From the NCBI GenBank assembly GCA_017307785.1, contig JAFKGI010000002.1, positions 1 to 64,000 of the forward strand: a stretch of DNA of 64,000 nucleotides, written 5' to 3'. The DNA comes from Vulcanimicrobiota bacterium. Lineage in GTDB: Bacteria; Vulcanimicrobiota; Xenobia; Xenobiales; JADMJV01. Positions within the stretch are counted from its first letter, which is position 1. Every line of letters begins with the position of its first letter. The translations under genes and the position numbers were made by a program. This document shows, piece after piece, positions 47,806-64,000 of the stretch. The notes beneath the pieces were generated by a model. That model was given only the letters and a program-made list of their open reading frames with translations. It searched no databases and had not been told where the DNA came from.

Positions 47806-50106
47806 ATGGCTCAAGTGCAAGGACAAGTTTCACCCCAGATGACGGCTGCTGAGATGCGCGAGTATTACCTGGAACAGACTCGCCGCAGCCTGGAGGCTTT
47901 CGAGGCCAGCCACGGCAGCATCACCGACCACCCCCCGTTTGCCCTCGACCGCGGAGGCGCCAGCGAGTTTCTGCTGACCCCCCAGGTGGCCCAGCAAATC
48001 CAGCTGCGCAAACAGATCGATGAATTTGCCGCCGAAGCCAAAGTCTCCACGGCCGGCGTCCGCGAGAACCAGAACGTGCTGTGCAGCTGGGATTCGCGCT
48101 ACCGCATCAACCAGTACATCTTCGCCCTGTTGGCCGAAGCGCTGGCCCGGCTCGCCCAGGAACTGCAGGCCGAACGCGTGGCCGCTCTGCCGAAACTGGA
48201 CGTGGCCCGCGTGCGCGCCGAACTAGGCGAAGAGAACGCCGTTTTGATCGAAGAAATCTTCCAGATGGAGCTGGCTCAGGCCATCGACTTTGCCCGCGCC
48301 AACCCGCTGCGCATGGTGGGCGGCGAAGTCCGCTCCAACACCCCGCTCTACGTGGGCTTGATGGGTCGCATCTACGCCGCGCGGGGCCTGCACGTATTCG
48401 TCACCGCCGACCACGGCTTCCGCGATACCTCCACCATTTTCATTTGGAGCTTCCTCACCTACCTGCTCGGCATGTCGGGAGGCGACTACTTCACCTCCAG
48501 CCACGGAGCCCCCCAAAAACAGTCCGACAAAATCCTCGCCCCGGACGGGGCCCAATACCTGCCTCCGCTCTATGCACGAATCGTGGAACACCTCTACTCC
48601 ATTCTGGAGGAAATCGAGAAAGACGGCTACCTCATCAAGCTGGCCGCTCTCGACGACCCGCATCTGCACTTCAATTTGACCTATGGACGCATGGCCAAAC
48701 TCTACGCCAACTACCTGCGTCAAGGACCGGCTTCAAGCGGAGCACTGGCCACCATTCAGAAGGCCATCGACAGCAAATTGCGCCTCCAACTGGACTTCTT
48801 CGGCGGCGCCGGCTACCGAACGATCTATCCGGTCCTTCAAGAACTCGGCATCGATGGCGCTTTTGAGGGCGGCCTGCTGCGGAGCGAAGAGGACCCTTTC
48901 TTTCACAACATCGGTTTCCGCGTGGCTAAGAAGAAGGGCTCCGAAGAATACGAGGTGGTCCACGACTCGGTCGACGCCAGCCTTCCCGTAGTGGTCAAAA
49001 GCGCCGGTTACGACAAGCTCCTGGCCGACGCTCCCGACGGGCAGATGATTTTCAACGTGGACCCGGACTCCGACCGATTCGTGGTCGGGCAAATCGTGCC
49101 GGCCAGTCAGAAAGCCACTCTAGACAAACTCGGTATCATCTGGCTGGAAATCGGCACTCGCCTGTTCGCCCTCTACAGCCCCAACCAGTTCTTCTTACTG
49201 CTGGCCGAGAACGACCGCGTGGTCGCGGTCCACGATGGCAGTTGGCAAAAATACAGCAATTTTGACGTCCACACCTACGTCTCAGCACTGGCCTGGGACG
49301 AGTGGGCTGCCCACCACAAAATCCCGGTCGTGCGCGTACCGGTCGGATTCAAAGAAATCGCGGCCGTCATTCGCCAGGTCGAGGCGGGAGCCGCCGGAGA
49401 GGGCCCCATCCAGGTCAAGAACGAGCTGGGCGAAGTCATTTCCATCGGAAAAAATCCGAAGTTGCACCACGCCGGAGAAGAAAGTGGGGGTAAAATCGGC
49501 GGCCCCAGTCGCCCCATCTTCAACATGATGGGCGAGAGCGTTCTGGGCATGCGCGAAAAGAGCAGCGGCGAAGCTTGCGTCTCGGCCGTCTCGCTGGCCG
49601 CTCGTCTCTGGCTAGAAGCCGAGAAATCGGGAAATCCCGAGCATTACTATCTGCATAACTATCTGCAGCAAGTGTTCCAGGACAACGCCATCAGCAACCC
49701 GATGGAATCCCGCGGCGACATCGTGCACTACAACGAAGCCATCTTCGACCCGGACGAGCTGGCCAAAGCCAAGAAGCTGGGCATCGAAGAGCGGGTTCAG
49801 TTCAACGCCTTCTTCACCGACCCGGTCGAGAAGTACGCCGCCGGCCAGATGTCGTTGGGCGAGCTTTCCCAGATGCTGGCCCAGGCCATGCCGGGCATGG
49901 CCGACGAGTGGAAGCGACTGGAGAAAGTGGACCGCTGGTCGGACGGCCTGCAGTTCTGGTTTGCTCAAGGCGGAAAGATGCGCGACCTGTGCCTCCGGCC
50001 GTCCGGCACCGACGCCAAGACCAAAGTCTACCTGGATGGAACGGACAAGCACTACCTCCAGGAAATCTTCGAAAAGAACTTCAAGAACTTCAACCCAAAA
50101 GCTTGA
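47806..50106 (+). CDS. Large alpha-D-phosphohexomutase
   Basis: 766 residues with strong RBS CAGGAGG. All four superfamily signatures are visible: TSSHGAPQKQSDKI (phosphoserine region, Ser near 230), NVDPDSDRF (metal Asp cluster near 419), GEESGGKIGG (sugar contact; elsewhere usually GE.SGH), and LCLRPSGTDAK (phosphate-binding, about 731). The family is normally 450-570 residues; the extra about 180 residues are in the N-terminal part (helical, residues 1-190) and after the metal loop. It should interconvert hexose-1- and hexose-6-phosphates for glycan precursor supply. Substrate is not determinable. It precedes the SFPD-repeat gene. Confidence 0.93.
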   Translation: MAQVQGQVSPQMTAAEMREYYLEQTRRSLEAFEASHGSITDHPPFALDRGGASEFLLTPQVAQQIQLRKQIDEFAAEAKVSTAGVRENQNVLCSWDSRYRINQYIFALLAEALARLAQELQAERVAALPKLDVARVRAELGEENAVLIEEIFQMELAQAIDFARANPLRMVGGEVRSNTPLYVGLMGRIYAARGLHVFVTADHGFRDTSTIFIWSFLTYLLGMSGGDYFTSSHGAPQKQSDKILAPDGAQYLPPLYARIVEHLYSILEEIEKDGYLIKLAALDDPHLHFNLTYGRMAKLYANYLRQGPASSGALATIQKAIDSKLRLQLDFFGGAGYRTIYPVLQELGIDGAFEGGLLRSEEDPFFHNIGFRVAKKKGSEEYEVVHDSVDASLPVVVKSAGYDKLLADAPDGQMIFNVDPDSDRFVVGQIVPASQKATLDKLGIIWLEIGTRLFALYSPNQFFLLLAENDRVVAVHDGSWQKYSNFDVHTYVSALAWDEWAAHHKIPVVRVPVGFKEIAAVIRQVEAGAAGEGPIQVKNELGEVISIGKNPKLHHAGEESGGKIGGPSRPIFNMMGESVLGMREKSSGEACVSAVSLAARLWLEAEKSGNPEHYYLHNYLQQVFQDNAISNPMESRGDIVHYNEAIFDPDELAKAKKLGIEERVQFNAFFTDPVEKYAAGQMSLGELSQMLAQAMPGMADEWKRLEKVDRWSDGLQFWFAQGGKMRDLCLRPSGTDAKTKVYLDGTDKHYLQEIFEKNFKNFNPKA

Positions 50107-50126
50107 ACGAAGAGGGGGGACTGACC

Positions 50127-50429
50127 GTGGAACGACGCAGCCTTTTGAAGTGGATGGCTCTGGTCGCGCTGTGCCCGCGGCCGGGCCGAAGTCTGCCCGA
50201 CCTGAGCAAACTCTTCGGCAAGATCCAGTGGGTGGAAAGCTTTCCCGACTTTAAGGTTCAGGTCGTCCACTCGTTTCCTGATCTGAAGGTGGAACTGGTG
50301 ACCTCCTTCCCCGACAAAGTTGGAAAATGGCAAATTGTCGACTCATTTCCCGATTTCAAAATCCAAAAAGTCGACTCATTTCCAGATTTCAAGATTCAGT
50401 TCGTGGAATCGTTTCCGGGAATCCCCTGA
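50127..50429 (+). CDS. Tat-exported protein of SFPD tandem repeats
   Basis: 100 residues from GTG 50127, behind a GGGGG purine stretch. The N-terminus MERRSLLKWMALVAL is a twin-arginine signal (RRxLLK followed by a short hydrophobic core). From about residue 36 there are six copies of an 11-residue unit with consensus V-x-S-F-P-D-F-K-[VI]-Q/E, ending in WQIV..KVDSFPDFKIQ..FVESFPG. Units 4-5 are nearly identical at DNA level (33-base repeats around 50336-50400). The pattern of alternating hydrophobic and polar residues suggests a beta-solenoid or barrel folded before export. Family not recognised. Downstream gene is convergent with 4 bases between ends. Confidence 0.82.
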   Translation: MERRSLLKWMALVALCPRPGRSLPDLSKLFGKIQWVESFPDFKVQVVHSFPDLKVELVTSFPDKVGKWQIVDSFPDFKIQKVDSFPDFKIQFVESFPGIP

Positions 50430-54202: not shown

Positions 54203-57200
54203 ATGGATTCTTGGCGCCAGCTGGTCGCACCAACTAAATTCACGGGTCGCGAATGGTTCTTTCGTCGCCTCGAAGCCTGGCTGGCCGACCCGGAGAGCCG
54301 GGTCTGGATTCTGCAGGCCGAGCCGGGCTATGGAAAGAGTCGCCTGGCACAAGAGATCTTTCAGCGCTACCCCGATGCACGCACGCTGGAGGAGGGTCCC
54401 GCCGCGCTGGTGGTGGCGGACGCACCCGAACTGCACGGCTTCAACCCGACCGGCGGAAAAACGATCCTCTTCAGTCGTCCCCAACTACGCCTGGCCAGCT
54501 TGATCGGCCCCGGCGTCCTCTTCGAAACCCTGGACTCCATGCAACTGGAGAACATCACCGATCTGGCCCTGCATTTGAGCGGACACGCCCGGGCCGACAG
54601 CATCCTGCGCAGCTGCGGCGGCAATTTTGGCGTGGCCGAGCTGCTGGCTGCCAGTCCCACCGAAATGGACGTGCTGCGCAGCCTCTGGCAGTTAGCCGAA
54701 GACGCGCTCCAGGGCTCCCCGAACCGCGACCTGTCTTCGCAAATCCTCACTCTCCTGGGCGAAACCGGCGGCCCCTTGGAAGCCTGGCGTATCTGCGACT
54801 TTCTGGGCACCAGCGCGATGCGCGTGCGCGAAGCCCTGACCCCACTGGAGCCGATTCTCAAGCGCCAGGATGACCGCTATCAGGTCTTTTCTCCCTGGCT
54901 CGGTCAGGCGGTCACCTGGTCGCACTTTCGCGACCTCGAAGTACTGCATGCTTCCGTCATCACTTACTTTCGCGAAACCTATCCGTCCTGGGAAGAAATG
55001 TCCGACCCTTACGGCTGGGACTACCTGGTCCACCACTGCGACCGCTTTGCCCGCACCGCTCGAAAGAAAGACTTCTCGGTGCTGCACTGGCTGGGCGAAG
55101 GGCCTTTCCTGCGTCAGAAACTGCGCCAGGGCGGCAAACTGCCGGGCGTGCTGCGCGACCTGGAGCGCTGCCTGGCAGCCGCCATGGAAGAGAGTGACCT
55201 CTCGCGTATTGCCTTCTATGCTTTCCAGCTACCGCGCGTGCGCCAGGAACGACTGGCCGGCGAGATGCACAAACTGGCCGACCTGGGCCAGATCGAGAGC
55301 GCTCAGGAATATGCGCTGCTGATTCCGCGGGAGAACCATAAACTACTGGCCTTGCTTTTGTTGACCTGGCAGGCCGTCGATGAGCGTCGCCTGGAACTGG
55401 CCGACCGTCTGCTCACGCAGGCCGTTCAGGTGGACACGGGCAACATGTTCGCCGAACTCAACCTGCTCATCGTCAGCATCTGCGCCTGCCTGCTCAAAGG
55501 CATGCCATCCCGCGAAAAGGACATTCTGGAGCTGCTGAGCCGGGATGACCAGAGTGGTCGAGCCGCCAGCAATTACCTGACTCTCGGCCTCATCGAAGGC
55601 CTGGAAGACCGGTTGCGCAGCTGGGTGCTCCGCCGCGGCTGGAACCAGGCGCCGCACGGCAACGGCACCGACCAACAGCGGCTGAGCACGTTCATCGGAC
55701 AATCGCTGCGCGCCCTCAAGCAAAACGAGCTGGCGCAAATGTGGTCCGGCGCGCTGACCCGGCCCGCCATCAGTCAAGAAGACTTCGACTCGAAGCTGAA
55801 AGAACTCATCGGACTGGAAAGCGAAGTCGAACGCCTCGATCAGTTGGTGGATCTGGCCGACCAGGTCACTCGCCAGCACCCCTCCGACTGGCTCGGTCAC
55901 GCGGTCGGCGTGCTGACCATGGCCTTGCAGAATTTCGCCCAGCCGGATTGCTGGCTGCGCGGTTTTGCTCAGCTTTCCCGGCTATGGATGACCTTCGGCC
56001 CCATCCCGGAGGCCTTTGAGGGACTGGAACGCCTGACCCAACTGGCCAACGATCTGGAACTGGAGAACGGGTTGCGAGTGCGCATCATCGCCGACCTGGC
56101 CCTGGGCTTCTATCGCCTGGGAGACTCCACTCGCAGTCAACAGCTCATCAGCAAAGCCGCCGCCGGCGCCGTCTCGGAGCTGGAAGCCGAAAAGAAAACG
56201 GCCGCGCTGGCTTTTGTGGGTGCGGCCACGGCTCAGCTCAACAATCCGGCCCGCGCTCGCGACCTGGCTTTCACTCTGCTGGAAGCCCTGGAGCCGCCTC
56301 CGGGTGCCATGCAGGACCATTTTTGCCGCCTGACCTTCCGACTGGCCAGCAACGCCAACGGCACACCCGACCAGTTTCGCCAGGCCCTGGGCCAGGATCA
56401 ACGAGAACTGGTCGGCCTGGGCAACAGCCCGCGCGAACGCGCTTATTTGCTGCTTGGATTGGCTCGAGCGGCCCACCATAGCGGCGACGCAGACTGGTCC
56501 GATCAGTTGATGCAGCAAGCGGCCGTGCAGGCCCATTTGCTGGTCGTCCCCAAACTCAAGGCCTGGACGTTGGCCGACCTCGCCTGCCTCGCCTGGGACA
56601 CGGGCCAACACGATCGCTATCGCGCCTTTCTGCTGGAAGCGGAAGAAATTCTGGCGACCGAAAAGACGGCCATTCATCGCCTGGAGGGCATGGTCGACCT
56701 GTGCCGCGCGATGGGTCATAGCAAAGACCGCCGGGCCCGCGCGGTCCATCGCGAGATTCTCCAGGGGCTGGACGAAGTCGGCCAGATGGAAGTCTGCCTG
56801 AGCTCCGCCCTCCCCCGCCTGCTCCCGCTTTTGCAGGAGACGGAGACGCGCGAACTGGCCAAGAAGCTGCTGGAAAAGCTGCGCTCGACCCCACCCGAGC
56901 TGAATCAGCGCGACCGCGATCTCTATCAATCCGGACTCCTGCATTTGGAGCTGGCCTTCGGCGAGTATGACAACGCGCTGGCAGCCCTGGTGCCGGTGGT
57001 CAGTCCGCAAGTTCGCTCGCAAGCGCTGGTCGATTTGGCCGTGGGCCTGACCGCCCGCGATCCCCGCGAAGGCCTGGCCTGGCTGCCCGTTATTTCTCGA
57101 CAGCCCGACCGCCTGCGCGCCATACGCCTGATCCTTTCCGAACTGGGCGCCGAAAAGCGGCCCTGGCGCCGCCAGGCCTGTCACGAAGCTCTGCAACAAC

Positions 57201-57361
57201 TGACGGTGCTTGCCCAGGAAGATGAAGCCACCATGGATCTGGTGGTCAGTTACTGGCTGACACGCGAGAGCGACCGTCGCAAGTTCGAAGCCACCGGTAA
57301 GCGGCTCGGCTGGATTCCCGAGCCCGCTCCCATGCAGCCTCTCATCGTCAAACCTGCCTGA
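54203..57361 (+). CDS. P-loop protein with long helical-repeat region (STAND-like)
   Basis: 1052 residues from ATG 54203 behind AGGAAAGG. Residues 8-50 begin with TKFTGREWFFRRLEAWLAD and VWILQAEPGYGKSRLAQEI, a P-loop (G42-K45-S46) after a TGR-type anchor as in STAND NTPases. A winged-helix-like stretch occurs near residues 185-240 (LLGETGGPLEAWRICDFLGTS). From about 290 to 1040 helical repeats resemble degenerate TPR units (AFEGLERLTQLANDLELENGLRVRIIADLALGFYRLGD read in parts). Such proteins act as signal- or scaffold-coupled switches. It is coupled to the esterase by TGATG, thus part of the ATP-grasp cluster. Walker B is not obvious (ALVVADAPE is a candidate). Confidence 0.82.
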   Translation: MDSWRQLVAPTKFTGREWFFRRLEAWLADPESRVWILQAEPGYGKSRLAQEIFQRYPDARTLEEGPAALVVADAPELHGFNPTGGKTILFSRPQLRLASLIGPGVLFETLDSMQLENITDLALHLSGHARADSILRSCGGNFGVAELLAASPTEMDVLRSLWQLAEDALQGSPNRDLSSQILTLLGETGGPLEAWRICDFLGTSAMRVREALTPLEPILKRQDDRYQVFSPWLGQAVTWSHFRDLEVLHASVITYFRETYPSWEEMSDPYGWDYLVHHCDRFARTARKKDFSVLHWLGEGPFLRQKLRQGGKLPGVLRDLERCLAAAMEESDLSRIAFYAFQLPRVRQERLAGEMHKLADLGQIESAQEYALLIPRENHKLLALLLLTWQAVDERRLELADRLLTQAVQVDTGNMFAELNLLIVSICACLLKGMPSREKDILELLSRDDQSGRAASNYLTLGLIEGLEDRLRSWVLRRGWNQAPHGNGTDQQRLSTFIGQSLRALKQNELAQMWSGALTRPAISQEDFDSKLKELIGLESEVERLDQLVDLADQVTRQHPSDWLGHAVGVLTMALQNFAQPDCWLRGFAQLSRLWMTFGPIPEAFEGLERLTQLANDLELENGLRVRIIADLALGFYRLGDSTRSQQLISKAAAGAVSELEAEKKTAALAFVGAATAQLNNPARARDLAFTLLEALEPPPGAMQDHFCRLTFRLASNANGTPDQFRQALGQDQRELVGLGNSPRERAYLLLGLARAAHHSGDADWSDQLMQQAAVQAHLLVVPKLKAWTLADLACLAWDTGQHDRYRAFLLEAEEILATEKTAIHRLEGMVDLCRAMGHSKDRRARAVHREILQGLDEVGQMEVCLSSALPRLLPLLQETETRELAKKLLEKLRSTPPELNQRDRDLYQSGLLHLELAFGEYDNALAALVPVVSPQVRSQALVDLAVGLTARDPREGLAWLPVISRQPDRLRAIRLILSELGAEKRPWRRQACHEALQQLTVLAQEDEATMDLVVSYWLTRESDRRKFEATGKRLGWIPEPAPMQPLIVKPA

Positions 57362-58071
57362 TGCAGAGGCTCTACTGGAACGACTGGAGTCACGCCCTCC
57401 AGCGCCCCATGGAAGTCCTGACCTATGGACATGCCGGCGCTCCGGTGCTGGTTTTCCCCACCAGTCGGGGGCGCTTTCATCAGTGGGAAGACTTCCAAAT
57501 GATCGAGGCCTTGCGTCACCCCATCGAAAATGGCTGGCTGCAGCTTTTCTGTGTGGACGGCATCGACAACGAGACCTGGTATGACTTCGACAAACCCGTC
57601 TCCGAAGTTTTGGAGCTGCATCAGCGCTATGAGCAGTATCTACTGGAAGACTTTTTGCCTCGACTGCGTGCCACCAACGCCAGCGACTTCCTGATCGCCA
57701 CCGGCACCAGTTTCGGCGCTTTCCACGCCGCCAGTTTCGCCCTTCGCCATCCCTCTCAGGTTCGGAGGGTGGTGGCTATGTCCGGAGATTTCGACGTCAG
57801 CAAGAACCTGGACGACAGCTACGAACCGCCCGCCTACTTCTTCAACCCCATCGCCTACCTGGGCAACGTGGGGCCCGGAACCTATCTGGACCAATTGCGC
57901 GGCCTGGATTTTCGACTGGCGGTTGGCGCTCACGACTTTTGCCTGCCTCCCAGTCGCGAACTGGCCTACTTGCTGGGACGTCTCGGGGTTCCCAACCGCC
58001 TGGACGTCTGGGACGCCCGCTTCATCCACGATTGGCCGACCTGGCGCGTCATGGCCCCTCAACTCCTATAG
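57361..58071 (+). CDS. Esterase-family alpha/beta hydrolase
   Basis: 236 residues; ATG overlaps the upstream stop (TGATG). Family features: MEVLTYGHAGAPVLVFPTSRG, LFCVDGIDNETWY, the elbow GTSFGAFHAASFAL with Ser as nucleophile, an Asp in LAVGAHDF and a His in FIHDWPTWR near the end, forming a full Ser-Asp-His triad. No signal peptide. The protein is paralogous to the partial gene at 1-400. Esterases beside ATP-grasp ligases could release, trim or transfer the amide- or ester-linked product. Its position between a STAND-like protein and ligases suggests a role in the same pathway. Confidence 0.9.
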   Translation: MQRLYWNDWSHALQRPMEVLTYGHAGAPVLVFPTSRGRFHQWEDFQMIEALRHPIENGWLQLFCVDGIDNETWYDFDKPVSEVLELHQRYEQYLLEDFLPRLRATNASDFLIATGTSFGAFHAASFALRHPSQVRRVVAMSGDFDVSKNLDDSYEPPAYFFNPIAYLGNVGPGTYLDQLRGLDFRLAVGAHDFCLPPSRELAYLLGRLGVPNRLDVWDARFIHDWPTWRVMAPQLL

Positions 58072-58109
58072 AGGACCCCTTTCCAAAGAACACGAACCCC
58101 GATTTCTCG

Positions 58110-58997
58110 ATGTCTCAACTGCTGGGCATACTCCACGGCCGCGAAGAAACGTTTCCGCCCGCCCTCCTGCACGAGCTCAATGCCCGTCAGGCCGGCGTCC
58201 ACGGCGAGTCGATCACCGTGTCCAGCGTAGAAGCCCTGGAACGCAGCCCCTATCGCCTGCTGGTCGACCGCATTTCCCAGAGGGTTCCGTATTTTCACAG
58301 CCTGCTGCACCAGCAAAAATGGCTGGGGGTCGAGTCCCTTCCCTCGCTGTCGTTGCATTCGCTGGACCGGGTGGGGCTGGCTCAACTGGCCCTGCAGGCG
58401 CGCGTTCACGCTCCTCCGACCGTGCTGCTTCCCCATCACTCTCATCCCGCCGGAGTAGAGGGCGACGACCTGGGCAACCTGGCTTATCCCATGCCATGGG
58501 AGAATTACCTGCGCCAAATGGGACTGCCGGCAACCCTGCGCAGTGCTCGACTGGGACACGGTCCCGTCTATCGAGTGGCCAGCCTGGGCGAACTCTGGAC
58601 CGCCTACGGCAAAAGTGGAGACGGCCTGATGGTCGTGCAACCGGATCTCAGCGATGCCGAGCATGTGCTGGCCATCGTGGCCGGAACTCACCTGGAAGTG
58701 GTCGGCTACGACCCGGTTAGCCTGCGCTACCGACCGGCTCCCGAGGAACTGCTGCAGCCAACCCTGCAAGCCTGCCAGCGCCTGCTTCAGCTCGCCGATT
58801 TCAACTTGACCGGACTGGAATTCGCCTGGCATCGTTCGAAGCTCTGGCTCAGTGATCTTCACCTGACTCCCGACCTGGAATGGTGGACGCTGGGCGAAGA
58901 GGCCTTCGGGCGCATCGTCACAAACTTTGCCGATGAACTGATTCGTCGCACCCTCCCCAAAAAGACATCCAAAGCCAAAAAGACGAGGAACCAATAG
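58110..58997 (+). CDS. ATP-grasp-like protein, divergent
   Basis: 295 residues from ATG 58110; no strong RBS is seen, and the upstream frame is open through 57939. The C-terminal half reads like an ATP-grasp or RimK-like fold: MPWENYLRQMGLPATLRSARLGHGPVYRVASLGEL (entry strand and Lys/Arg), GDGLMVVQPDLSD, and LTGLEFAWHRSKLWLSDLHLTPDLEWW. Usual E-x-N metal ligands are replaced by D-x-H-x-T-P-D. The N-terminus resembles a pre-ATP-grasp region. Basic tail KKTSKAKKTRN. It probably activates or ligates an amino or carboxyl group together with the next enzyme, but catalytic competence is open. Confidence 0.65.
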   Translation: MSQLLGILHGREETFPPALLHELNARQAGVHGESITVSSVEALERSPYRLLVDRISQRVPYFHSLLHQQKWLGVESLPSLSLHSLDRVGLAQLALQARVHAPPTVLLPHHSHPAGVEGDDLGNLAYPMPWENYLRQMGLPATLRSARLGHGPVYRVASLGELWTAYGKSGDGLMVVQPDLSDAEHVLAIVAGTHLEVVGYDPVSLRYRPAPEELLQPTLQACQRLLQLADFNLTGLEFAWHRSKLWLSDLHLTPDLEWWTLGEEAFGRIVTNFADELIRRTLPKKTSKAKKTRNQ

Positions 58998-58999
58998 CA

Positions 59000-60403
59000 A
59001 TGCCCACTTCCATGAAGCCCATTCGCTCCGATGGAGTCGATGCTGCCCTGGCAGCTGCCGCCCGCGAGGCTCACCGCCTCGAAGCCGTTTCCTACTACAA
59101 CTCCCTTTTGGAGCGCGAAGACCTGGCGGAATTCGCCCAGGAGCTGCAGACCCATATGCACAGTCGCGGCGCCGTCTTCGGAGAGCGCCTCATGTGCCCG
59201 TTCCTTCGTCCCCACTTTTGCGGACGCGAACAGCTGGATCTTCTGAATTCGGCCGTGCGCGGAGTGGTCGGCGCATGCAACGTGTTGGGTCCTCGCATTC
59301 AGGAATCCCCCGAGCTGCAAGACGCACTGGGCCTGAGCGAAGAGGAGCGACGGCTGTGCTCTATCGACCCCGGTTATCCGGAGTTTTCGGTCACCTCTCG
59401 CCTGGACAGCTTCATGCTGGGCGGCAAAGTGCGCTTCGTAGAGTACAACGCCGAGTCGCCCGCGGGCATCGGCTACAACGATGTCATGCAGGACGTCTTC
59501 CTCTCCACTTCCGTGATGAAAGAGTTCGTCCGCGAATTCCCCTGTCAGCCGCTCTACACCAGCGAAACTCTCCTGAACAACCTGCTGGAGTGCTATAAAA
59601 CCTGGGGCGGAATCGACAAACCGGTCATCGGCATCGTCGACTACGAAGGCCTGCCCACTCGCCACGAGTTCGAGATCTTCCGTCGCTTTTTCAACAGTCG
59701 CGGCTATCAGTGCGTGGTGGCCGACCCCCGCAAGCTCGACTACAACGGCGAGCGTCTCAGCTACGAAGGCCAGACCATCAATCTGGTCTACCGTCGCCTG
59801 CTCACCACCGAGTTCCTGGAGCGCTTCGAAGCCTGTAAGCCAGTCTGGGAAGCCTACCGCGACCGCAAGATTTGCATGGTCAACAACTTCCGCGCCAAAT
59901 ACCTGCACAAGAAGGCCATCTTTGCGCTGATTACCGACCCTGTCTACCAGGACGGCATGACGCCGGAACAACTCTTTGCCGTCTACACCCACGTGCCGTG
60001 GACGCGCCGTGTCTCCGACACCCGCACCACCGACGTCGAGGGCCGAAACATCGAGCTGCTGGACTGGATCCGCAAGAATCGCCGCCAACTGGTCATGAAG
60101 CCCAACGACGAGTACGGTGGGAAAGGCATCTTCGTAGGCTGGGAAATGAACGACGAAGACTGGGATAAAGCCATCCAGACCTCGTTGGAAAGCTTCTACC
60201 TGGTGCAGAACAAAGTGGAAGTCTCGCGCGAAGTCTATCCGACCTGGGACGGTAAGACCGTGCACTGGGCGGAGTACAGCGTGGACCTGGATCCCTTCAT
60301 CTTCAAAGGCGAAGTGGAAGGCCTGCTGACCCGCCTTTCGGCCACCGCTCTGTGTAACGTGACCGCCGGCGGCGGCGTGGTTCCAACCTTCGTTCTTGAC
60401 TAA
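59000..60403 (+). CDS. Circularly permuted ATP-grasp ligase
   Basis: 467 residues, ATG 59000. The sequence shows the circularly permuted ATP-grasp/glutathionylspermidine-synthase-like layout: an acidic helical N-terminus, SRLDSFMLGGKVRFVEYNAESPAGIGYNDVMQ, RRLLTTEFLERF, NNFRAKYLHKKAIFALITD, then RQLVMKPNDEYGGKGIFVGWE (nucleotide-binding strand and Lys, Gly-rich loop) and CNVTAGGGVVPTFVLD. Such enzymes form amide or peptide bonds at the expense of ATP. It is two bases after the previous ligase and is followed by HyuA, indicating joint action on one product. Confidence 0.9.
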   Translation: MPTSMKPIRSDGVDAALAAAAREAHRLEAVSYYNSLLEREDLAEFAQELQTHMHSRGAVFGERLMCPFLRPHFCGREQLDLLNSAVRGVVGACNVLGPRIQESPELQDALGLSEEERRLCSIDPGYPEFSVTSRLDSFMLGGKVRFVEYNAESPAGIGYNDVMQDVFLSTSVMKEFVREFPCQPLYTSETLLNNLLECYKTWGGIDKPVIGIVDYEGLPTRHEFEIFRRFFNSRGYQCVVADPRKLDYNGERLSYEGQTINLVYRRLLTTEFLERFEACKPVWEAYRDRKICMVNNFRAKYLHKKAIFALITDPVYQDGMTPEQLFAVYTHVPWTRRVSDTRTTDVEGRNIELLDWIRKNRRQLVMKPNDEYGGKGIFVGWEMNDEDWDKAIQTSLESFYLVQNKVEVSREVYPTWDGKTVHWAEYSVDLDPFIFKGEVEGLLTRLSATALCNVTAGGGVVPTFVLD

Positions 60404-60404
60404 G

Positions 60405-62360
60405 GTGGATGTCCAGGTCGGGGTGGACGTCGGGGGGACGTTCACCGACTTCGTGGTCGTCGACCCCGAGCGAGGTCGGCTGCAACTCAAGCGGCCGACC
60501 TCGCGCCCCGATCCTTCGGTGGGCATTCTGGCCGGTCTCCAGGAACTGGGCGTAACGTCCTGTGTCCTCAGCCACGGCACCACCGCAGCCACCAATGTGG
60601 CCCTGGAACGCCGAGGCCCACGCACCGCGCTGGTCACCACCCGCGGCTTCGCCGACGTGCTGACTTTGGGTCGAGGCCAACGGCTAGACCTCTACGCCCT
60701 GCTACCCCCTCCCCGCCCGACGCTGGTACCCCCGGAACTTTGCCTGGAGGTCGACGAACGCCTCGACTCCCGCGGGCAGGTCCTACGCCCCCTCGATCGC
60801 GCCGAATGCGAAGTGCTGGCCCAGCATCTGGTGGCCCAGAAGGTCGAAGCCGTGGCAGTCTGCCTGCTCTTTTCCTACCTGAGTCCAGACCATGAGCTTC
60901 TCCTGGGGGAAGTTCTCTCCGCCGCCGGCCTGACAGTCAGTCTGAGCCATCTGGTCGATCCGCAGCCCAAAGAATACGAACGGGCCAGCACCACCGTTCT
61001 GCGCGCCTATGTAGCTTCCAGCCTGGACCGCTATCTCGACCATCTGAGCCGCAGCCTCAAGCAAGCCGACCTCTGGGTGGTTCGCTCTTCCGGCAGCGTG
61101 TGCAGGCCGGAAGAAGCGGTAGAGCAGGCCGTCGGCTGCCTGCTCTCAGGTCCGGCCGCGGGCCTGCAGGGCGCCTGGCAACTGGCCCAGGAACAAGGAC
61201 TATCCCGCATCATGACGGTCGACGTCGGTGGCACGTCCACCGACGTGGCGCTTTGTGACGGCTCTCTGCCCTATCTCGTGGAGAGCTCGGTGGGCGGACT
61301 GCCCTTTCGTTGCGCTCAGACGGACATTCAAACGGTGGGAGCGGGCGGGGGTTCGATTGCCAGCCTGGACGCGGCCGGGCTGCTTCAAGTCGGACCGCGT
61401 TCCGCCGGCAGCCAACCCGGCCCGGCCTGCTATGGCCAGGGTGGGCCTGCTACGGTGACCGACGCTCTGCTGGCGCTGGGTCGCCTGCCCGAGCAACTGG
61501 CGGGCGGGCGCCTCAAACTGGATCGTCAGGCCAGTCTGCGAGTGCTGGAAGAACTGTCTGTCCAGATGCATCTCCCGGTTCTCGAAACCGCGGCCGCCAT
61601 CGTCGCCCTGGCCGAGCACAACATGGCTCAAGCCCTCCGCTTGATCAGCCTGGAACGTGGCTATGATCCACGCCTTTTCGTGCTGATGGCCTTCGGCGGA
61701 GGCGGAGCCAGCCACGCTACCGCCCTGGCCGAACAGCTGGGGATGAAACGGATTCTGGTGCCAGCCCACCCCGGACTGCTGTGTGCGCAGGGCGCCATGC
61801 TCGCCCCCTGGCAAGCGGAGGAACAGCGCGCCTGGTTGACCGGCCTGGCCGAGGCCGAAAGCGAGGTACGCAGCTGGGCCGCCGAAGCTCGCCGGCGCCT
61901 GAAGCGCAAAGCCCCGTCCGGCAAGCTCAGCTGGACGCAACAGTGGGAGATTCGCTACCAGGGACAGGGGAGCAGTCTGTGGCTCCCCGGCGGGGCTCGC
62001 CTGTCCGAACGTTTTCACGCTCTGCACCTGCGTCGCTTCGGCTACCAACGGATCCACCAGGCACTGGAGCTCGTTTCGACCTTGCTGCGCGCCAAGGTAG
62101 ACCGACCTCGAGCGGAAGTGCCGACGTTGTCGCCGGCTTCGAATTCGCCCACGGAATCGCAGGCCTATTGGGGTCTTCCTCCCCAACCGGGCAAGATCCG
62201 AGTGTTTCAAGGCTACCCGGAGGAATGGGTAACCGGTCCGGCCCGCCTCGAGACCATGGACGGCACCGTGTGGATTGGTGCGGGTTGGCGCGCTCAACGG
62301 GTGGGAAACGGTGGTCTAACCATGGAATCTCTCCCCTTAGAAGAGGAACATGCGGAATAG
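60405..62360 (+). CDS. hyuA: Hydantoinase/oxoprolinase A-type ATP-dependent amidohydrolase
   Basis: 651 residues, start GTG 60405 (TTG 60396 overlaps the previous stop). N-terminal actin-like ATPase motif VGVDVGGTFTDFVVVD, SHGTTAATNVALERRGPRTALVTTRGFADVL, and VDVGGTSTDVALC with GGGSIASLD in the middle; typical of N-methylhydantoinase/5-oxoprolinase A subunits. The B subunit is not downstream; the next gene is a PilP-like protein. Family members open cyclic imides or lactams with ATP. In this cluster it might activate or recycle a cyclic intermediate made by the ligases, such as a pyroglutamyl or hydantoin-type cap. Confidence 0.92.
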   Translation: MDVQVGVDVGGTFTDFVVVDPERGRLQLKRPTSRPDPSVGILAGLQELGVTSCVLSHGTTAATNVALERRGPRTALVTTRGFADVLTLGRGQRLDLYALLPPPRPTLVPPELCLEVDERLDSRGQVLRPLDRAECEVLAQHLVAQKVEAVAVCLLFSYLSPDHELLLGEVLSAAGLTVSLSHLVDPQPKEYERASTTVLRAYVASSLDRYLDHLSRSLKQADLWVVRSSGSVCRPEEAVEQAVGCLLSGPAAGLQGAWQLAQEQGLSRIMTVDVGGTSTDVALCDGSLPYLVESSVGGLPFRCAQTDIQTVGAGGGSIASLDAAGLLQVGPRSAGSQPGPACYGQGGPATVTDALLALGRLPEQLAGGRLKLDRQASLRVLEELSVQMHLPVLETAAAIVALAEHNMAQALRLISLERGYDPRLFVLMAFGGGGASHATALAEQLGMKRILVPAHPGLLCAQGAMLAPWQAEEQRAWLTGLAEAESEVRSWAAEARRRLKRKAPSGKLSWTQQWEIRYQGQGSSLWLPGGARLSERFHALHLRRFGYQRIHQALELVSTLLRAKVDRPRAEVPTLSPASNSPTESQAYWGLPPQPGKIRVFQGYPEEWVTGPARLETMDGTVWIGAGWRAQRVGNGGLTMESLPLEEEHAE

Positions 62361-62997: not shown

Positions 62998-63024
62998 AAG
63001 GCCCGCTCCGGCGGGCTTTTTTTT
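62998..63024 (+). terminator. Intrinsic terminator after the PilP-like gene
   Basis: GCCCGC (63001-63006), TCCG loop, GCGGGC (63011-63016) with flanking AA/TT pairs, and eight T (63017-63024). Confidence 0.9.
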
Positions 63025-63544
63025 ATGCAGTCAGTGCCTCTCTCAATTGCCGCACGTGATCGTCCTGGATTTCCAGCTCATCGAGAGTTTGAGCCAGGCG
63101 TAACAAGTAGTCGATGGAAGCCCCACTCGGACCGGCGGCTCGGCGAATTCGCTCGACCAGGCGGTCGAATCCCTGGTCTCCCAGGTACGACGGGTTGTGC
63201 TCATCGGCGACGTAAGTCCAACAAGGCAGGTCCTGGTCTTGCCAGCGCGCCGAAACTCGTTTCAGCTGATACCCGTCTTTTTCGCGGTAGTCCAGCTCGG
63301 CCTGGATAGCCGGCCAATCCTGGTCGGGTATCTCGTAAGCCAACCCCCAGCAACCGTCACCGGAGTTGGGAACCAGGGTGCACACCACCCCGGGATATTC
63401 GGGAGTGCCGCGATGGTCGGTCGAACCCTGCCAGAGGCGCCGCGACCAGTCCGGAAGCCAGACTTTGCGAACTTCTGTGTAAGCGAATCCAGGATTCCAC
63501 AGCAGAGAGCCGTAACCGAAAACATTGTGAGTGAGCGAGTTCAT
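63023..63544 (-). CDS. ChaC-like gamma-glutamylcyclotransferase
   Basis: 173 residues, start ATG at 63542-63544. FGYGSLLWNPGF at the N-terminus is the family's nucleotide-like binding loop, followed by RRLWQGSTDHRGTPEYPGVVCTL, GLAYEIPD, and the catalytic Glu region (LDYREKDGYQL). ChaC enzymes degrade glutathione to 5-oxoproline and Cys-Gly. This links to the HyuA/oxoprolinase-type gene at 60405 by substrate chemistry, though they are on opposite strands. The start region overlaps the DUF420 start by 18 bases, head to head. Confidence 0.9.
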   Translation of the reverse strand: MNSLTHNVFGYGSLLWNPGFAYTEVRKVWLPDWSRRLWQGSTDHRGTPEYPGVVCTLVPNSGDGCWGLAYEIPDQDWPAIQAELDYREKDGYQLKRVSARWQDQDLPCWTYVADEHNPSYLGDQGFDRLVERIRRAAGPSGASIDYLLRLAQTLDELEIQDDHVRQLREALTA

Positions 63545-64000
63545 CCCGTAACCTATGTCGGCAGCCTGATTGCCAGTGCCGCGGCTGCCCTGTTTCTGAT
63601 CTGGCTGGTCTACTTTAAGCCGGCGGCGGCCGAACAGCAAGCCTGGGTGGCCTATCTACCCTGGTGCAACGCCTTTTTCAACAGCTTGAGCGCCTACCAT
63701 CTGATCCAGGGCTGGCGCAATATCAAAAGCCGAAGAATTCCCCAGCATCGTTACCATATGCTGGGCGCCCTGATCTGCTCCAGTCTCTTCCTGATCAGCT
63801 ACATTCTCTACCACTCGCTGCACGGCGACACCAAATTCCCCCAGAGCCTCGGCTGGATCCGAACCATCTACCTCGTGATTCTGGCCAGCCATGTGGGACT
63901 TTCCATTGTCATCCTGCCGGTGATCCTGACAACTTTTGCCCTGGCCTTCATGGGGAAATTCACCGTCCATCCCAAGTTCGGCCGCATCGCCCTACCTGTC
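63527..64000 (+). CDS. DUF420 membrane protein, 3' part outside the window
   Basis: From GTG 63527 the open frame runs to the edge (about 158 residues). Four hydrophobic segments (YVGSLIASAAAALFLIWLVYF, LPWCNAFFNSLSAYHLIQGW, MLGALICSSLFLISYILYHS, IYLVILASHVGLSIVILPVIL) match DUF420, associated with heme-copper oxidase assembly (CtaM/YozB-like). HYMLGA-type and YHSLHG histidines are visible, as expected. No RBS is apparent and the start codon lies inside the ChaC start region, so the true start is uncertain. Presence suggests an aerobic respiratory chain. Confidence 0.85.
   Translation, partial: MSERVHPVTYVGSLIASAAAALFLIWLVYFKPAAAEQQAWVAYLPWCNAFFNSLSAYHLIQGWRNIKSRRIPQHRYHMLGALICSSLFLISYILYHSLHGDTKFPQSLGWIRTIYLVILASHVGLSIVILPVILTTFALAFMGKFTVHPKFGRIALPV

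Follow-up and report, generated by a model that had tools for sequence, protein, structure and literature searches.

The 64,000-nucleotide stretch of contig JAFKGI010000002.1 from a Vulcanimicrobiota bacterium (the window) carries five consecutive plus-strand genes at positions 54203 to 62360, which encode a STAND-type NTPase (STAND), an esterase-family hydrolase (EST), an ATP-grasp-like protein (AGL), a circularly permuted ATP-grasp protein (CPAG), and a hydantoinase/5-oxoprolinase-type ATPase subunit (HyuA). With roughly even confidence, we propose that these genes specify a lineage-specific, STAND-associated small-amide or peptide pathway built around one active amide ligase, CPAG, and variable tailoring enzymes. 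The window lies on contig C37 of a 7.65-Mb draft genome (G000), whose nearest named relatives are metagenome-assembled genomes of Candidatus Eremiobacterota.

Conservation of the five-gene unit

An earlier note on this DNA described five packed plus-strand genes, and the open reading frames (ORFs) and junctions read from the DNA agree with that description. STAND and EST have one base in common (TGATG), 38 bases separate EST from the AGL start codon (ATG, 58110), and the AGL stop codon (58995 to 58997) lies 2 bases from the CPAG start codon (ATG, 59000). HyuA starts either at a TTG codon at 60396, overlapping CPAG by 8 bases, or at a GTG codon at 60405, directly after CPAG. A promoter scan gave 0 sites versus 1 expected by chance.

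All five genes are present in each of the five genomes of the genus (G000 to G004), which belongs to a little-known lineage of soil bacteria. Gene order is identical on the intact contigs (L033 and L035), and G001 and G002, in which contig breaks fall inside the unit, are consistent with it. Within the genus, the products share 70 to 98% identity, and the ratio of nonsynonymous to synonymous substitutions (dN/dS) across the unit is 0.02 to 0.16, values that are approximate because they come from a simple Nei-Gojobori count. Between G000 and G003 (dS = 0.65 to 1.0), dN/dS was 0.03 for CPAG, 0.05 for STAND, 0.09 for EST, 0.12 for AGL, and 0.16 for HyuA; CPAG is the slowest-evolving gene of the unit throughout (0.02 to 0.04). 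Because the genes are kept in all genomes of the genus at this level of identity and constraint, the array is not a product of chance.

Outside the genus, the unit is found only in parts; a single scan of genome contigs returned the genus only. In G005, from a sister genus within the family, AGL-CPAG-HyuA form an uninterrupted run that continues into hyuB, whereas EST (48% identity) and STAND (29% identity) sit as a pair on that contig at a distance of about 15 kb. STAND also adjoins EST on one contig of G006, from another family. STAND orthologs were found in G005 to G007 and G009 to G014; the f3 family shows two arrangements after STAND, either a GNAT gene and then CPAG (G010 to G013) or CPAG directly, with a GHMP kinase gene behind it (G007 and G009). 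Since this sister family also pairs STAND with CPAG, in the company of GNAT or GHMP kinase genes, the STAND-CPAG linkage is the oldest part of the unit, and the tailoring genes vary. The refuting condition set by the earlier note, that the genes are not conserved together, thus gives a mixed result. Co-conservation of all five genes holds within the genus, but beyond it linkage is retained only for AGL-CPAG-HyuA (across the family) or for STAND with CPAG (in two families belonging to the order).

Several observations weigh against a single five-gene pathway. As the split arrangement in G005 shows, the five genes can occur apart and do not form an obligate unit. HyuA and AGL are its fastest-evolving genes, and the AGL ortholog of G004 (L035, 8097 to 8954) contains two in-frame stop codons, so that AGL may be dispensable, or the contig, with a stated coverage of 6.3, may be in error. 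The putative interaction between STAND and CPAG is suggested by their linkage. An alternative that we entertain only tentatively is that STAND and CPAG serve one function while EST, AGL, and HyuA are unrelated passengers in a transcription unit assembled by chance in the genus. The separation of STAND-EST from AGL-CPAG-HyuA(-HyuB) in G005, the loss of hyuB from the operon in the genus, and the disrupted AGL of G004 all fit such an assembly. However, gene order and tight junctions have been kept across the genus despite high synonymous divergence, and the starts overlap or nearly overlap the preceding genes.

The two ATP-grasp proteins

CPAG (59000 to 60403, plus strand; 467 amino acids) was assigned by alignment, AlphaFold2 modeling, Foldseek, and profile comparison to the circularly permuted ATP-grasp amide ligases of the glutathione synthetase/glutathionylspermidine synthetase superfamily. 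Its match to Pfam family PF14403 (23.4 bits) falls below the cutoff of 32, whereas a homolog in G017 passes at 35.1 bits. The CPAG model (predicted local distance difference test score [pLDDT], 93.2; predicted template modeling score, 0.91) has the permuted ATP-grasp fold, with glutathione synthetases as the best Foldseek matches (8fbz, E = 2e-18; whole-protein template modeling [TM] score, 0.65 to 0.69) and further matches to 3n6x (a putative glutathionylspermidine synthase), YgiC/YjfC, GspS, and Cp1B (9cjn). A sequence search of the PDB with CPAG alone returned nothing useful, but a profile of 28 CPAG homologs matched 3n6x (1e-11) and Cp1B (9cjn, 4e-7).

In the alignment of these 28 homologs, residues R134, D136, E148, N150, K305, K367, and R445 are invariant. 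In Cp1B, substitution of R139, D141, E163, or N165 abolishes or strongly cuts activity, and these residues are needed for acyl-phosphate chemistry (PMC12568646). Matched by motif rather than by a printed structural alignment, R134, D136, E148, and N150 of CPAG appear to correspond to these four residues. CPAG thus carries the R-x-D and E-x-N acyl-phosphate and metal residues together with the ATP lysines, their roles being assigned by comparison with Cp1B. Because the fold is matched and the catalytic residues are invariant, CPAG is very probably an active amide ligase, and these features together with its slow evolution mark it as the core enzyme of the unit; the earlier proposal of an amide-forming permuted ATP-grasp is upheld. 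CPAG shares the permuted fold, the R-x-D and E-x-N motifs, and the C-terminal Arg region with eukaryotic-type glutathione synthetase, glutathionylspermidine synthetase, YgiC/YjfC, and Cp1B. It differs from them in its low identity (11 to 17% in structural alignments), the absence of an amidase domain, and its linkage to STAND.

Distant CPAG relatives (22 to 26% identity) also occur on plasmids. One on a Selenomonas plasmid lies near a glutamate-cysteine ligase family gene, a MATE transporter gene, and an alpha/beta hydrolase gene; one on a Sinorhizobium plasmid lies near another ATP-grasp gene and an MFS transporter gene; and one on a Pantoea plasmid is clustered with ectB, ThiF, TauD, and ATP-grasp genes. 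These neighborhoods look like small-molecule pathways, in support of the general reading. On loci L047 to L049 of family f15, a CPAG relative stands beside a DinB/FGE (EgtB-like) gene and GCS2, an arrangement that hints at a function close to the metabolism of ergothioneine or gamma-glutamyl thiols. G005 additionally carries a CPAG paralog that adjoins an S66 LD-carboxypeptidase-like gene (L065, 9544 to 10500), a possible link to peptidoglycan peptides, and a tandem pair of CPAG-like genes encoding 407 and 409 amino acids (L068, 6432 to 8888).

AGL (58110 to 58997, plus strand; 295 amino acids) has no match in Pfam or NCBIfam. Nevertheless, its AlphaFold2 model (pLDDT, 91.2) has the RimK/LysX/Ddl fold over its full length (Foldseek versus PDB, E = 6e-12), which confirms the suspected ATP-grasp fold and rules out the possibility that AGL is not an ATP-grasp protein. 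At the canonical sites, Lys87 and Lys144 are replaced by Arg, Gly147 by Arg, Glu178 by Pro, Arg187 by Leu, and the metal-binding Asn251 by His, and the metal-binding Glu237 and Asp249 are kept. Both ATP lysines and the glycine loop of an active RimK-type ligase are accordingly missing, and the metal-binding E/D/N set has lost its Asn. In contrast, both lysines, the loop Gly, the Glu, the Arg, and the metal E/D/N residues are all kept in 12 of 13 aligned full-length AGL homologs, a set that excludes the operon orthologs; the exception, L117, has also lost some active-site residues. The AGL ortholog of G005 lacks both lysines and keeps the D and N. Judged from alignment and model, AGL is most likely a pseudo-ligase that has lost its ATP site, and because purifying selection acts on it within the genus (G004 excepted), we consider it a candidate pseudo-enzyme rather than a merely decaying gene. 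Given the residue losses, two active ligases were rejected, and the earlier idea of a cooperating ligase pair is not supported.

AGL thus resembles RimK, LysX, and D-Ala-D-Ala ligase in its full-length fold and has homologs with intact sites in the same phylum, where proteins of about 310 amino acids are common; it differs from those enzymes in lacking both ATP lysines, the glycine loop, the Glu, the Arg, and the metal Asn. Since intact homologs adjoin GCS2 in G017 and G048, descent of AGL from a peptide ligase fits. A tblastn search of plasmids with AGL gave no match. Iyer, Aravind, and co-workers reportedly described operons that combine RimK-like ATP-grasp proteins, GCS2-type carboxylate-amine ligases, and alpha/beta hydrolases. 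The GCS2-linked AGL homologs recall these operons, as does an ATP-grasp gene that adjoins an esterase relative in Peptoclostridium. The window unit, in contrast, has no GCS2, its permuted ATP-grasp is the apparently active ligase while the RimK-like member looks dead, and STAND and HyuA have been added.

HyuA, EST, and STAND

HyuA (60396 to 62360, plus strand; 654 amino acids) was identified by Pfam (PF01968, 2e-79; PF05378, 4e-46), PDB matches (7hk5, 1e-93; 6yra, 8e-84), and motifs as the ATPase subunit of a hydantoinase/5-oxoprolinase-type ATP-dependent lactamase. The ASKHA ATP-binding motifs D11VGGTFTDF, D276VGGT (DVGGTSTDV), and PGP are intact. The same phosphate and PGP motifs occur in the caprolactamase CapA (PMC8453981), but HyuA scored 349 against the CapA model (cutoff, 1000), and caprolactamase was rejected as an assignment. 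G000 encodes two PF01968 proteins and one PF02538 protein (HyuB); the gene for HyuB, at C78:83765-85258, has no hyuA as a neighbor. This HyuB is 42% identical to the HyuA-adjacent HyuB of G005 and carries the metal-site motifs DFS, THLPD, and HHSDVGG, which makes it a candidate partner and excludes an orphan HyuA. Because HyuB adjoins HyuA in G005 and is unlinked in G000, the simplest reading is that the two became separated in the genus of G000. The suggestion that HyuA opens lactams is thus modified, since HyuA is not a stand-alone lactam opener but supplies the ATPase half of a HyuA/HyuB enzyme. In its phosphate and PGP motifs, and in the presence of a HyuB with metal-site motifs in the genome, the protein resembles caprolactamase, 5-oxoprolinase, and N-methylhydantoinase; it differs from these systems in that hyuA and hyuB are unlinked in the genus. 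PxpA was found in 0 of 23 genomes searched, which leaves HyuAB as the only 5-oxoprolinase candidate seen and 5-oxoproline as a plausible substrate only. A second HyuA-type protein of 751 amino acids is encoded in G000 (C10:97681-98592, L157) without an adjacent HyuB, and HyuA-type proteins also occur in f3 genomes without any HyuB.

Beyond the unit, a ChaC-type gamma-glutamylcyclotransferase gene lies at 63023 to 63640 on the minus strand, convergent to it. This arrangement raises the alternative of a gamma-glutamyl cycle, in which CPAG would be a eukaryotic-type glutathione synthetase or gamma-glutamyl ligase, ChaC would release 5-oxoproline, and HyuAB would return glutamate. The best fold match of CPAG is indeed a glutathione synthetase (E = 2e-18), no GshB (PF02955) is present in the genus, and PxpA is absent from the genomes searched. 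Moreover, ChaC is confined to 7 of the 58 genomes, which are precisely those of the window family and f2, and adjoins the unit in the genus; the CPAG relatives beside GCS2 and an EgtB-like gene in three f15 genomes point the same way. However, PF04262, the glutamate-cysteine ligase type, was found in 0 of 23 genomes, and GCS2 is missing from G004 and G005, both of which carry unit genes, so that the supply of gamma-glutamylcysteine needed by a glutathione synthetase is not accounted for. A PF02955 protein is present in G005, ChaC is convergent to the unit in the genus and unlinked in G005 and G006, sister-family genomes with CPAG have neither ChaC nor HyuB, and the whole-protein TM score to glutathione synthetase reaches just 0.65 to 0.69. 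We consider such a cycle unlikely, and a glutathione synthetase pathway proper was rejected as incomplete on the PF04262, GCS2, and PF02955 evidence.

EST (57361 to 58071, plus strand; 236 amino acids) is an alpha/beta-hydrolase of the esterase family that matches PF00756 above the cutoff (1.1e-5). The nucleophile motif GTSFGA and the acid and His motifs GAHD and IHDW are kept, and orthologs adjoin STAND in G005 and G006. G000 encodes several EST paralogs, and a partial esterase-family paralog with 35% identity to EST lies at positions 5 to 373 of the window on the minus strand, right where the contig begins.

STAND (54203 to 57361, plus strand; 1,052 amino acids) has weak Pfam matches to NPHP3_N and AAA_16 and was classified by ortholog alignment. 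In the orthologs, long helical repeats are preceded by EPGxGK(S/T), a Walker B-like LxxIDS, a sensor-like strand with RP, and a winged-helix-like stretch, and one ortholog (L054) passes PF13401. The window protein keeps the P-loop (EPGYGKS, residues 40 to 46; 54320 to 54340) and has a shorter NTPase region, followed by a winged-helix region and C-terminal helical repeats; the winged-helix and repeat regions are named from reading the alignment, not from structure. The P-loop NTPase, winged helix, and repeats of a STAND NTPase are therefore recognizable through the orthologs, and the earlier call of a STAND-type leader stands. STAND proteins have usually been studied in immunity and transcription. 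The window protein shares the P-loop, Walker B, winged-helix, and C-terminal repeat regions of its orthologs with MalT/NACHT-like systems but differs from them in that neither an effector nor a DNA-binding domain was recognized as fused to it and its partner is a metabolic ligase. An anti-phage or interbacterial conflict system, in which STAND would do the sensing and the enzymes would be the effectors, would suit the STAND architecture, which is typical of such systems, and the multigene operon, but we regard it as very improbable, given that no effector domain was recognized, the location is conserved and CPAG evolves very slowly instead of spreading patchily, the main survey of STAND conflict systems (PMC7159879) makes no mention of ATP-grasp proteins, and PADLOC-DB returned no match for the other four proteins and a single weak one for STAND (HEC-01B, E = 0.003, 15.6 bits; residues 761 to 805, 45 residues within the repeats), which we treated as noise. 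A known defense system was rejected on the strength of that PADLOC-DB result.

Elsewhere in the window, a small protein of repeated SFPDFKIQ-like units is encoded at 49908 to 50429 on the plus strand and has no Pfam match.

A proposed STAND-associated amide pathway

In the proposed pathway, CPAG would use ATP to activate a carboxylate as an acyl phosphate and join it to an amine, as in glutathione synthetase, YgiC/YjfC, and Cp1B. AGL, having lost its ATP-site residues, would no longer bind ATP normally and more likely serves in binding or regulation as a subunit, probably one of CPAG. HyuA, together with the HyuB encoded elsewhere, may drive the ATP-dependent opening of a lactam such as 5-oxoproline and so supply or recycle an amino acid building block, and EST may remove an ester-type group or release the product. 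Linkage and domain type point to STAND as a putative sensor or scaffold, driven by NTP, that would control CPAG. Related families retain STAND and CPAG as the core and have GNAT or GHMP kinase genes in place of the tailoring enzymes. That the product is a peptide or amide cap, as the earlier note had it, is a guess. A more specific version, which we think doubtful, is that STAND acts as a switch in trans on a glutathione-synthetase-like ligase whose ATP-grasp partner is catalytically dead, and that the resulting NTP-gated complex produces a gamma-glutamyl-like or peptide metabolite specific to the order.

A graspetide pathway, producing a ribosomally synthesized and posttranslationally modified peptide, was rejected; no precursor-like short gene was seen by eye in the unit among ORFs of at least 90 amino acids (shorter ones would escape), and AGL lacks ligase residues. 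Searches of open-access literature, which turned up the paper on Cp1B and surveys of graspetides and of STAND conflict systems, gave no description of this gene set, and the remark in the earlier note that it knew of no such described system holds as far as that literature goes; subscription papers are mostly outside it, which makes this weak evidence. Compared with known amide-ligase pathways, the unit is unusual in having STAND as its oldest linked partner and in having, where a second ligase might stand, what is probably a pseudo-ATP-grasp.

Taken together, the proposed pathway, if true, would provide (i) a well-defined example, open to testing, in which a STAND protein is coupled to an amide ligase of metabolism; (ii) a case of a bacterial pseudo-ATP-grasp, by which operons with two ATP-grasp genes need not encode two active ligases; and (iii) for the Eremiobacterota, which have been little studied, a candidate pathway to a metabolite specific to the lineage.

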